From positions 1 to 64,000 of the forward strand of contig NZ_JACAAX010000036.1 in assembly GCF_013377085.1 (NCBI RefSeq): a DNA stretch of 64,000 nucleotides, read 5' to 3'. Shown here one piece after another: positions 52,981-57,510 of this stretch. Each line of letters opens with the position of its first letter. Position 1 is the stretch's first letter. Position numbers and translations under genes: made by a program. This DNA comes from Rhodoplanes sp. GTDB taxonomy: Bacteria; Pseudomonadota; Alphaproteobacteria; Rhizobiales; Xanthobacteraceae. Below the pieces are notes generated by a model, which was not told the origin of the DNA, did no database searches, and saw only the letters and a program-made list of their open reading frames with translations.

Positions 52981-53435
52981 CGGACGCCCCCCGAGGCTGT
53001 CGGCGCGGCGTTGACCGCCGCACCCGCCCCAATGTCCCGCCGGCACAACTAGCCCGCCCGCCTAGTAGGAATGGAACGGGACATCGAGACAACCCGATCG
53101 GAGTAGGTCCGAGTCGAAATTCGCCCGAATGTGGTATTGAGGTCACGCCTCGCCCAAGACGTGCCGACCTCCGACGAGATCGACGCGGCGGCAGCGGAGG
53201 GTGACGGCCGGGCTCGTCGGCTCGGGGCGGGATCAGGTGGGGGGCGGATCGCGCGCGGCGCTCAGGCGACGCCGAGCTTCTTCTGCAGGCTGGTCGACGA
53301 GGTCGTGTACTGGAAGACGACGCGCTTCTCCGGGAAGACGTAGCGGGCGGCGGCCTGCGCCATCAGGGCGCCCTCGTGAAAGCCCGACAGGATTAGTCGA
53401 ATATGGTAAGAGGTCAAAAGAAGGGCCGGGCAACT
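52981..53435. other. Region between autotransporter and helicase genes
   Basis: A promoter region for the autotransporter is expected near 52981-53150. The right part holds the broken reductase 3' fragment (53262-53398) and the left junction of the helicase insertion. Confidence 0.6.
53262..53398 (-). pseudogene. 3' fragment of a ferredoxin-NADP reductase gene
   Basis: On the leftward strand this encodes the last ~45 residues of the reductase at 59761 ([20 protein letters not shown] and the following GVA end). By eye it differs from the intact gene at only about three bases out of ~130, including one Asn-to-Ser change. Homology continues a little past the stop (GGATCGCGC flank) and stops abruptly at 53398, where the helicase-bearing DNA begins. 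The missing upstream part continues at about 57329. Confidence 0.85.
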
Positions 53436-56400
53436 ATGGTGACAACAAAACTCACACCGCGCGTGCCGCGGAGTCATCTGTCCGTCCGTGTGCCCTGGCA
53501 CGATGCCGCCTGGGACGGCACGGTCTGCCGCGCACCGCGCCACAACTCGAGTTGCTTGGCGCTCAATCGCATTGGCGCTGCCAAGAACGATGAAGTTGAG
53601 GAGCCGCATGCCGGCCAGTTTCTTGATTCGGTTCCACGTGACGAAGCTCCGCCATGTTTCTCGGAGCGCGTGAGCTTTCTGTCGGCCAGACCACAGCATC
53701 GTCTCGCACGCCATGCTTACGCGCGAACCAGCGATGATCATCGTCACATCCGTGACACCCTCTTTCTTCATCCGGCCTTTTCGGCGGCCGCCACCCCCTT
53801 CGGCTGGCTTCTGAAGGACCGCGCATGGGGTGAAAAGTGGAAGAAGGGCTCGATCGACGCCAATGCTCTGGCCGAGCGTTGGGGCATCGACTCCCATCCC
53901 GAATATGAACCTGACACTCCTGACTGGCTTTACGATCGGCCCTGGATCCAAGGCCATCGCAACCAGCAGGGCCTGCTCGACGCATTCTTCTCGGCCCTTG
54001 AGCCGAAAGAGAGTCTCGTCTTTTTCTACGCCAAGCGAACACCTCTGCTCGACGACGATCAATGGATGATCGTGGGAGCCGCCAAGGTGACGTCGATCGG
54101 CGACTTGCGCGAGTGGGATTATGAACCCGGCGCCACCAGCCCGATCCGCTCCTATCTGTGGGAGCGAAGCGTCTGCCATACGTTGCGCCCAGACGGGTCG
54201 GGCGGAGTTCTCCTTCCCTTGCACGAGCTGCTTAAGCACGCCGAGGCCGATCCCGCCCTCGACATAAGTGACTGCATCGCCTTCGTGCCGCCTGAATATC
54301 GGTCGGAATTCTCCTACGCGAGCGAGTTGGTCTCGCAGGGCACCGCGATCTCAGCGCTACTGGCAATGAAAGAGGCGCTCGCGACCTTCGGCCGTCGCTT
54401 CGGCGGCGCTTGGGGATCGCAACTGAAATGGATAGATGAACGACTCGGCGAACTATGGGAGCTTCGCGGGCCGTATCCGGGACTAGGATCGCTTCTCACG
54501 GCGCTCGGCGTGCCGCACGGCCATCAACTCGCTCAGCACGCCTGGTCGCTCGCCGGCAAAAACGGCGACACTTGGACCGCGCTCGGCAAGCTTGTTGCGG
54601 CACCGGCTACAGCGCCGCGTGATCTGGCACCGCAGCTTGCCGCGCTCAAGGATATTTGGGCCTACCTGCATTCAAGTATAGGCGCCAGACGGCGAACGCT
54701 GGCCAAGCTGCTGGCCCGGGTCAATCTGTCATCGGAGCAAGCAGCACGCTGGTGGGATCCAGCCGCGCGCAGCGCCGCTGATTTGAGCTATGTCGGTAAA
54801 CCGATTGCGGACGATGCGATCGTCGCCAATCCCTATCTCTTCTTCGAATGCGATCGAGGACAGGTCGATCCGATAGCCTTCCGCACGGTCGACCAGGCGG
54901 TTTTCCCTCAAGCCGCCGTGCTCGACGCCCACCCGGTGCCGGCGCCGTCCGCCATGACAGGCCCGGTCGATGGTCGGCGTCTGCGCGCAGCGACCCTCTC
55001 GGTGCTCGAAGAGGCCGCCAACGATGGGCATACGCTCCTGGGACGCGACATGGTCCTCGCCGCGGTCAAAGGCCTCGCCATCGAGCCTCCGCTTCCAGCG
55101 ACCACCGATCATTTCGAGATTCATAGCGAGGCGCTCAAGCCGCAGATCGAGCATTGCACGCTTGATGATGGCGCCCCGGCATTCCAGCTTGACCGCCTCG
55201 CGGCGGCGCGGACGCTCATCGAGCGAACGGTCGTCAAACGTGTTCGACAAGGCAAGCGCCTCGACGTTCCGGTCGATTGGCGAGCCATGCTGGATAGCAA
55301 TCTGCCAGGTTCCGCGCCCAATGGGTCGCTCGAAGACCAGGGCCGCCACGAGAAGGCAGCGGCGCTTCGGGAACTTGCAGCGTCCCGGCTGTCGGTCCTG
55401 ATCGGCGCCGCCGGCACCGGCAAAACAACTCTGCTAAGGTTTCTCTGCCAGGCGGATCCGATCAAGAACGCGGGCGTGCTGCTGCTTGCGCCGACGGGCA
55501 AAGCGCGAGTCAGACTGCAAACGCAAACCGGGATTTTGGCGAAGACTCTCGCCCAATTTCTGCGGCCTCGGCGATATCGCGAAGCGACGCAAAGCTACCA
55601 CGTGATTGGCGATCTGGAGCGCTCTTCAGGGCATAAGACGGTGATCGTCGACGAGGCGTCGATGTTGACTGAAGAGCAGTTGGCCGCACTCATCGACGCA
55701 TTGAGTTCTGTCGACCGCATTATATTGGTCGGCGACCCCAGCCAGTTGCCGCCAATCGGTGCGGGTCGGCCGTTCGTCGATATCGTCTCGTTGCTCGCCC
55801 CGGAAATCGTCGCACCAAGAGCGCCAAAGGTTGCGCCAGGCTACGCGGAACTGACCGTTGGTAGTCGGCAACGCGGCGCCGACCGCAGGGACTTAGAGCT
55901 TGCCGACTTGTTCAGCGGGCGAGCTTCGGGACCCGCGAGCGACGAGATCATTTCGCACCTCTACACCGGCTATAATGGAGACCATTTGCGTCTCTGCCTG
56001 TGGTCGTCCCCCTCTGACCTTGCATCACTTCTTCCCAAGATCGTGGCGGAGGAACTCTGCATCGACCCGGCCGATCGCGAGGCGTCTTTCTCCGAGCTTG
56101 CGCTCGGAGGCACGCGCAGCGGTGCCCATGTCTATTTCAACTTTTGGTCGTCCGGGCCGGCCGCCGACAAATGGCAGATCTTATCGCCGCTGCGAGGTGA
56201 CGCCGCCGGCACGCTGCTGACCAACCGGCTCGTCCAGAAATATTTTCGCGGCGAGACCCGCAAAGCCGCCGAACTGGCTGATCGTCGCTACGCCAAGGTT
56301 TCCCCGCCTATGGGCAAAGACGGCATCATATACGGCGACAAGGTGATCAACCTTGGCAACCACCGGAGGACCTGGGTTTATCCGGACGCGGACTCGGACG

Positions 56401-57224
56401 GCAACGCTTCGCTTTGCTACGTCGCGAACGGCGAGATCGGCATCGCGACCGGACCCTTTAGAAAGAAGGGCAAAAAAACGAACCTCAACAACGTCCGCGT
56501 CACTTTCTCCTCGCAACCAGGCTTTGAATACACCTATTGGCCCAGCGATCTCGGCGAAGACGGCAGCCTGCTCGAACTAGCCTACGCGCTGACCGTCCAT
56601 AAGGCTCAGGGTAGCGAGTTCGACACGGTGTTCGTAGTTCTGCCCAATCCCTGCAGAATCCTGTCTCGAGAGCTTCTCTACACAGCGCTGACCCGTCAAA
56701 GCCGACGACTCGTGATCTTGTGTCAGGGCGACCCGCATCGGCTGGTTGATTTCCGACACCTGTCCGACGCGGCCCGCCGCCTCACCAATCTATTCGGACC
56801 ACCTCGACCGATCGTCGTTGGCACGCAGATTTTTGATGGCAAACACATTCACCGCTCAAGCCGCGGCGAATTGATGATCTCCAAATCGGAAGTGATAATC
56901 GCCAACGAGCTGCAAAGCGCCGGTCTTGATTACGCCTATGAACGTCCACTCATCGTCTCTGACGGCAGCCGTCGATATCCCGACTTCACGATCGAGGACG
57001 CGGAAACCGGGAGCATCTGGTATTGGGAGCATCTCGGCATGAAGGGAGATGCCGAATATGATCGGAAGTGGGCGCTAAAGCTCCAGTGGTATCGGGACAA
57101 TGGGATCCTGCCAGAAGAGGCGGGCGGTGGCCCCAACGGCATCCTGGTAACTACCGAAGAGCTCGATGGTATCCAGACCGACCAGATCATGGCGCTGATC
57201 GCCAAGATCAAGGATGGTGCCTAG
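53436..57224 (+). CDS. RecD-like SF1 helicase with nuclease-like C-terminus, candidate defence gene
   Basis: About 1262 aa from 53436 (an ATG at 53403 is possible). The N-terminal third is unfamiliar, with [20 protein letters not shown] near its start. Helicase motifs follow: Walker [10 protein letters not shown] (about 657-665), Walker B IVDEASM (about 738), motif [16 protein letters not shown], and the UvrD/RecD C-terminal motif [14 protein letters not shown] (about 1050) with ELLYTALTR. The final section (about 1168-1200, [20 protein letters not shown]) resembles a PD-(D/E)xK nuclease core. It is visibly less GC-rich than its neighbours, has no nearby partner genes, and sits inside a broken reductase gene, suggesting horizontal transfer. 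No recombinase is seen. Confidence 0.8.
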
Positions 57225-57328
57225 GGTTGCCCACCTTACTCGCACGTAGGCGATCATCGCGGCCTTGGAGAGCCTCGGATAGTCGCGGCGGCATTCGCGG
57301 GCCGACGGCGAGAATGTCATAGCGCTCA
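57225..57328. other. Right end of the helicase insertion
   Basis: About 100 bp of unexplained sequence follows the helicase stop before homology to the reductase resumes. Leftward it can be translated (ECRRDYPRLSKAAMIAYVRV) without a stop, but I recognise no family. No terminal inverted repeat matching the left junction was found. Confidence 0.4.
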
Positions 57329-57510
57329 GCTTCAGCTTGCCAGGACAGGTGTCGATGGCGTCGACGACGAACAGGCCGGGCACACTGGTCTCGAACTCCT
57401 CGGTGTCGACCGCGACCAGATTGTCCTTCAGGGCGACGCCCCGGTTCGCCACCGGGCCGAGCTTCATGGTGAGGCCGAGAGGAACCGCAGCATCGCCTCG
57501 CACGGCACCT
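57329..57510 (-). pseudogene. Internal fragment of a ferredoxin-NADP reductase gene
   Basis: Leftward translation gives [20 protein letters not shown], then [13 protein letters not shown] and PGKLKL, matching the intact reductase just before the point where the fragment at 53262-53398 resumes. By eye identity to the intact gene is near 89%, lower than for the left fragment. Homology fades near 57500, and the GntR gene's 3' end follows. The two pieces together would form one contiguous stretch of about 310 bp if the helicase DNA were removed. Confidence 0.8.

Follow-up and report, generated by a model that had tools for sequence, protein, structure and literature searches.

A candidate defence gene of the PDC-S68 family, putatively acquired horizontally, inside a displaced reductase gene end of Rhodoplanes sp.

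Partial duplication of a target gene beside incoming DNA has been described in Escherichia coli, where, in the excerpts of the study drawn on here, a design with one-sided homology gave a duplication PCR product in 56 of 60 Lac- clones and 14 sequenced clones carried lacZ duplications of 109-950 bp, attributed to a single crossover with a circular molecule from which part of the fragment was missing (PMC3240628). The same excerpts report microhomology of 3-10 bp at most junctions of homology-facilitated illegitimate recombination (HFIR). In Vibrio clusters of the type VI secretion system, an extract of a second report describes insertions that displace old 3' ends downstream and proposes a process akin to HFIR (PMC5361080). 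Regarding possible cargo, the abridged text of one paper states that other PADLOC candidates remain uncharacterised (PMC12482510), and part of an E. coli defence-island survey refers to some defence carriers with an unclear way of moving (PMC10121019). Here we analysed a 64,000-nucleotide stretch (the window) of a Rhodoplanes sp. contig (NZ_JACAAX010000036.1), in which a helicase gene lies between two pieces of a ferredoxin-NADP reductase-like gene. We consider it fairly probable that this gene is a mobile candidate defence gene of the PADLOC family PDC-S68 that was gained by horizontal transfer and became captured, with no recombinase of its own, in the reductase gene's displaced 3' end. As in the described single-crossover and HFIR insertions, to the extent that those excerpts cover them (PMC3240628, PMC5361080), part of the target end is duplicated, foreign cargo lies beside it and the old 3' end is displaced; in contrast, the event is read here from one genome and a second insertion lies within the displaced end. 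The cargo belongs to a candidate defence family that was already known.

The name of the reductase is that given in the original prediction, which was made from the letters of the window alone; Pfam gives Pyr_redox_2 and Pyr_redox_3. When its own genome (a 6.48-Mb assembly of 89 contigs) was searched with the intact gene, only two strong extra matches were obtained, both at this locus: a left piece (53262-53396 corresponding to query 1-135, 97%, E 6e-59) and a right piece (57326-57505 corresponding to query 132-309, 89%, E 3e-62), the third-best match having an E value of 7e-5. Local alignment lengthened the left piece to 53245-53396 (59741-59895 of the window, 97%). The right piece aligned to 59892-60069 of its own gene (89%, two extra bases) and the alignment stopped near 57505, reaching 57512 when congener G001 was used instead. 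In three of the five congeners searched (G001, G002 and G004) both pieces aligned to a single unbroken reductase gene, and no close reductase was found in the congeners G003 and G005 (58% complete). The two pieces are thus contiguous in the intact gene, as had been predicted. They had also been said to abut at one point with a few shared bases; local alignment confirmed this and set the overlap at 4 bp in intact-gene coordinates, with one mismatch (TCAG on the right, TTAG on the left). Because at least three matching bases of four arise at a junction by chance in 5% of cases, this overlap proves neither a target duplication nor microhomology. It falls within the 3-10 bp range given for most HFIR junctions, which is not significant by itself, and the recommended inspection of both junctions revealed no clean target duplication. 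An origin of the right fragment in another genus was rejected, its best match among the 30 reductase loci compared being congener G001.

Between the pieces lie about 3.93 kb of inserted DNA, occupied, as anticipated, by one 1262-residue helicase gene and some 100 bp that follow its stop codon. For this 101-bp tail no significant second copy was found in the own genome (next best match E 0.014), and the peptide read from it gave only two weak plasmid matches (E 2 and 7). The left junction had no match in the plasmids searched.

Comparison with the congeners placed these pieces in an ancestral context. The intact reductase is 85-89% identical in amino acids to its counterparts in G001, G002 and G004. 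In G001 some 360 bp separate the reductase stop from the end of the stop-to-stop frame of an autotransporter; in G002 the autotransporter stretch and the reductase are separated by about 1.4 kb that did not align, which may be a diverged passenger part of the autotransporter. Since the two genes adjoin in G001 and G002 and the left fragment holds that very position in the window, 216 bp from the autotransporter start, the ancestral order was autotransporter-reductase, and the DNA between 53397 and about 59740, which holds the helicase, the right fragment, a GntR regulator gene and an asparaginase gene, is extra. For the GntR-asparaginase stretch, DNA matches to the congeners were short (30-130 bp) and confined to three of the five, and the best asparaginase relative among 100 genomes of the family was 51% identical. 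The reductase 3' end therefore occurs in two places separated by 6496 bp, on either side of genes that lack long congener matches; this is the partial duplication of a target gene end around foreign DNA seen in single-crossover and HFIR insertion. Because the old 3' end stays beside the autotransporter, it is the intact gene that carries the second one. Hence the predicted insertion of about 3.9 kb stands, in that it interrupts reductase sequence contiguous in three congeners, but its target is not the pre-existing reductase copy that had been assumed: by synteny with G001 and G002, the "broken copy" is best read as the reductase's own displaced 3' end inside a composite insertion of about 6.5 kb, not as a free-standing copy.

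The helicase gene itself was acquired by horizontal transfer. No match at E<=1e-30 was found in the five congeners, and the gene occurred in nine of 391 genomes of the family, its own included. The closest relative found belongs to another genus, Azorhizobium doebereinerae (95% amino acid and 89% nucleotide identity; nonsynonymous divergence, dN, 0.027; synonymous divergence, dS, 0.459), so that the helicase dS of 0.46 across genera is comparable with the within-genus reductase dS of 0.22-0.40. Two other frames of the window (42067-45996 and 47573-48766) gave dS of 0.15-0.42, rough values in that the former frame is open beyond the gene it holds and the latter is a putative gene. The guanine-cytosine content (GC) of the helicase is 61.2% against 68.3% for the window, and that of its third codon positions (GC3) 69% against 94% for the reductase. 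A search for the helicase at other sites had been proposed with the original prediction; it revealed that DNA identity with the Azorhizobium homologue is limited to 53428-57224, the open reading frame (ORF) alone being common and the flanks unrelated. The ORF is intact and 1273 amino acids long in full, with candidate starts at 53403 and 53436, of which the latter, giving 1262 codons, is most plausibly the true one, because the Azorhizobium homology begins at 53428 and the homologue's first start codon aligns with 53436. Relatives were also found on nine plasmids, each under 60% identity, and on two unannotated "Bacteriophage sp." contigs at about 30%; we found no evidence for a phage or plasmid as carrier of this copy.

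Profile searches identify the cargo more closely than the label "helicase", which holds for its core, and place this horizontally acquired gene as a PDC-S68 defence candidate. PADLOC-DB 2.0.0 gave a near full-length match to PDC-S68 (PDLC05065, 1431 bits), covering residues 23-1269 of the 1273-residue ORF and positions 5-1218 of the 1221 in the profile; by this match the gene is a member of an uncharacterised PADLOC candidate phage-defence family. A literature search for the name PDC-S68 found no paper using it. The protein comprises an unassigned N-terminal region (about 1-640), a RecD-like superfamily 1 (SF1) helicase core (about 640-1110) recognised by Pfam, with a Walker A (GAAGTGKT, containing K663) and a DEAS motif, and a C-terminal nuclease-type fold (about 1113-1262). 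By profile, the nearest solved structures to the core are the RecD2-type 3e1s (E 2e-46) and RecD 1w36 (E 9e-38). Nevertheless, the protein lies far under the NCBIfam equivalog cut-offs for RecD2 (TIGR01448, 189.7 versus 500 bits) and RecD (137.7 versus 310 bits) and differs from both in its additional N-terminal region and C-terminal nuclease-type domain. The N-terminal 640 residues were modelled with confidence (pLDDT 85.7, pTM 0.86) and Foldseek found no match to this model in the PDB at E<=0.001, an absence that does not establish a new fold.

The last 150 residues were modelled as a nuclease-type core (pLDDT 83.9). The closest structures by VIA-align were the catalytic domain of I-Bth0305I (Z 9.5; 92 residues, 2.7 A) and Bax1 (Z 9.3), with Vsr (Z 8.0) within the first eight matches, and Bax1 also ranked first in Foldseek (6p4w_B, E 4e-4, TM 0.41). 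All three are members of the PD-(D/E)XK nuclease superfamily. The Z score by itself does not prove nuclease function, because two mitoribosomal chains also exceed 8; the model places the domain in the nuclease core fold of that superfamily. Across 16 aligned homologues (the alignment omitted those that were partial or split, as well as several of full length: L059, L060, L063, L064, L098 and L100/L143) E1152, P1182-D1183-F1184 and E1198-H1199 were invariant and no lysine stood two places past E1198, so the domain may have a variant active site relative to the E...D...(D/E)xK pattern. A link of this domain to Upx (9wuf, VIA-align Z 6.7) is not claimed; no related chain came up when the C-terminal profile was used for a sequence search.

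At the loci scanned, homologues of the gene often adjoin defence genes. From nine of 26 fetched loci we selected 18 neighbouring proteins, going by their position, their size and a first look, and scanned them with PADLOC (for L050 and L057 the analysis covered ORF lists only); strong matches (E<=1e-80) were obtained at six loci, weak ones at two and none at one. A prokaryotic Argonaute (pAgo) adjoins the Azorhizobium homologue (L049, 11934-14145), the next gene giving a weaker match to Argonaute-associated models. The other strong neighbours are the methylase, specificity and restriction subunits of a type I restriction-modification (RM) system at L053, DruE at L056, DruM/type II methylase at L058, a type I methylase at L061 and AbiU at L065. 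The weak matches are a GajB-like helicase at L062 and E1-E2 at L063, and neither of the two neighbours scanned at L052 matched. By this association a defence role for the helicase is likely; judged from its domains and neighbours only, it would most likely act as a helicase-nuclease on invading phage or plasmid DNA. At L053 (6470-13032) the PDC-S68 homologue stands between hsdM and hsdS of the type I RM operon, with gaps of about one base.

The history that we favour would involve three events. The GntR and asparaginase genes, together with a reductase 3'-end piece of about 330 bp, would have integrated by homology in the reductase, through a single crossover or HFIR, so that the gene was kept whole and its old end pushed aside. 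Before or after this, the 3.9-kb helicase segment would have entered by illegitimate end joining. Later, the left 150 bp or so would have recombined with a functional 3' end, or the island would have come from another strain by a crossover there, making the left piece look younger than the right. As a gain of a gene the case is of an ordinary kind, with clear sequence evidence for the insertion and an inferred manner of insertion. Ku-dependent end joining was dropped as the favoured joining machinery: the Ku match in the own genome (G000:C3:45496-45729, L138) reaches 28.1 bits against a cut-off of 25, covers only 78 positions and contains two stops, and no intact Ku frame was recognised in the ORF list around it. 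This fragment, in a genome 99.6% complete, possibly marks a lost end-joining system.

The original prediction saw no recombinase or terminal inverted repeats, and this was upheld. Comparison of the first 80 with the last 120 bases of the insert gave an inverted-repeat score of 16, reached by 17.6% of 500 shuffles, so that ends of a transposon or insertion sequence were rejected as candidates. Neither the helicase ORF nor any of 10 overlapping ORFs scanned in the insert region held a transposase or integrase Pfam domain, those 10 giving a single weak DUF5466 match, under its cut-off; the further genes of the composite insertion encode the GntR regulator and the asparaginase. For an integron cassette, no attC-like site was obvious by eye, a dedicated test not having been run. 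These negatives bear directly on the view of the insert as a present or former mobile element of a defined kind, either a transposon or an integrative element, which duplicated its target TCAG (the left copy now reading TTAG) and whose ends or recombinase have decayed or act in trans. The mismatched 4-bp overlap and the movement of the gene between genera would fit such an element. We nevertheless regard it as unlikely, given the ordinary inverted-repeat score, the missing transposase and integrase domains, the chance frequency of the overlap and the 89% identical Azorhizobium relative, which has the ORF in common and not element ends.

The two reductase pieces do not fit well with a single interrupted copy ageing evenly. 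A change was scored as private where the fragment's letter occurred neither in the intact gene nor in any of the three congeners and at least one congener shared the intact gene's letter. The count was limited to positions that could be compared in all five sequences (121 on the left, without the 4-bp overlap, and 179 on the right, without the two inserted bases), and four ambiguous right-hand positions were not counted as private. There were no private changes in the left piece and 12 in the right (0/121 and 12/179; Fisher p=0.002), 10 of the 12 at codon positions 1 or 2; moreover, at 59788-59789 it is the intact gene that has changed, the left piece retaining the congener letters. The difference in age would be explained if the left piece had recombined with a functional 3' end, or if a crossover there had brought in the island from another strain. 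In the intact reductase, a patch adjoining the stretch matched by the right fragment is only 74-76% identical to G001, between stretches at 94-95%, and codes for a loop motif that resembles other genera and not the congeners; this could be the scar of the same recombination or be unrelated. It bears on the reverse order of events, in which the helicase broke a working reductase first and the incoming GntR-asparaginase DNA, with a fresh 3' end, restored the gene and pushed the broken end aside. The broken end does lie at the ancestral position, and the patch starts at the end of the right fragment, as could be left by a recombination joint. Against this, no genome with a helicase-interrupted, unrestored reductase was found among those searched and the patch may stem from an unrelated recombination, and we give this order only a small chance. 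That the pieces are two independent partial duplications flanking the helicase, with no insertion into a contiguous copy, would suit their unequal private changes and is very improbable, as they share one orientation and meet to within 4 bp, each on its expected side, in a region of about 310 bp; for independent ends this would be a rare coincidence.

Several points weigh against the capture of a horizontally acquired defence gene in the displaced reductase end. Seven of the 12 right-hand private changes lie within 26 bp near the junction and, taken as one event, leave p=0.085, which also softens the objection that the unequal changes raise to the simple history implied by the original prediction. 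The empty sites come from other species and not from a same-species pair of strains. The helicase and GntR-asparaginase insertions may have come in either order; at its outer edges the crossover model is hypothetical, the GntR-asparaginase donor being a presumed one; and an old, eroded mobile element keeps some small probability. No intact Ku gene was recognised in the own genome for Ku-type end joining. Finally, the scanned neighbours were picked partly for their defence-like look, the proportion of six in nine stands without a background rate, and the immediate neighbours of the window member are metabolic or regulatory and not defence genes.

The features of the locus are collected in Table 1. 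Elsewhere in the window, the frame 42067-45996 (about 44.2-46.0 kb) holds a group A [FeFe] hydrogenase, scoring 712.7 bits with NF040763 (cut-off 765) and 504.9 bits, above cut-off, with TIGR02512; this stretch is kept in G001 and G002.

Table 1. Features of the reductase locus, in window coordinates.
Feature	Position	Strand	Evidence and remarks
Autotransporter gene, ancestral left neighbour of the reductase	49687..53046	-	Pfam PF03797; homologous stretch adjoins the reductase in G001 and G002
Left reductase fragment	53245..53396	-	last ~45 codons, stop and 17 bp downstream; ancestral 3'-end position; 97% to 59741-59895; 0/121 private changes
Inserted segment, about 3.93 kb	53397..57325	.	lies between the two aligned pieces; the contiguous reductase of G001, G002 and G004 lacks it
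PDC-S68 gene, 1262 amino acids	53436..57224	+	PADLOC profile; Pfam; Azorhizobium doebereinerae homologue; structure models
Insert tail, 101 bp	57225..57325	.	follows the helicase stop; not common to Azorhizobium
Right reductase fragment, frameshifted pseudogene piece	57326..57512	-	89% to 59892-60069; 2 extra bases; 12/179 private changes
GntR/FCD regulator, part of composite insertion	57547..58170	-	Pfam PF07729 and PF00392; no long DNA match in 5 congeners; GC 59.6%
Type II asparaginase, part of composite insertion	58497..59720	+	TIGR00520 above cut-off
Intact ferredoxin-NADP reductase-like gene with duplicate 3' end	59761..60789	-	Pfam Pyr_redox_2 and Pyr_redox_3
Divergent patch in the intact reductase	60064..60210	-	densest to about 60135; bounds approximate; starts where the right fragment ends

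One could go further and suppose that the reductase 3' end is a recurrent docking slot of the genus, where defence genes accrete without recombinases through repeated displacement and restoration of a gene tail. This is a doubtful extension, to which we attach little weight; its basis is the PDC-S68 gene nested in the displaced tail here and a CRISPR-like array near the reductase of G004. That array (L085, 19305-19763) comprises seven copies of a 37-nt CRISPR-like repeat, starting about 330 bp past the reductase stop, and the contig ends soon after. Were such a slot a general phenomenon, a gene tail pushed aside by homology-driven insertion would offer single defence genes a neutral place to land. 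The Rhodoplanes locus offers a readable case: a lone candidate defence gene whose two insertion junctions can both be seen and around which no mobile element was recognised.

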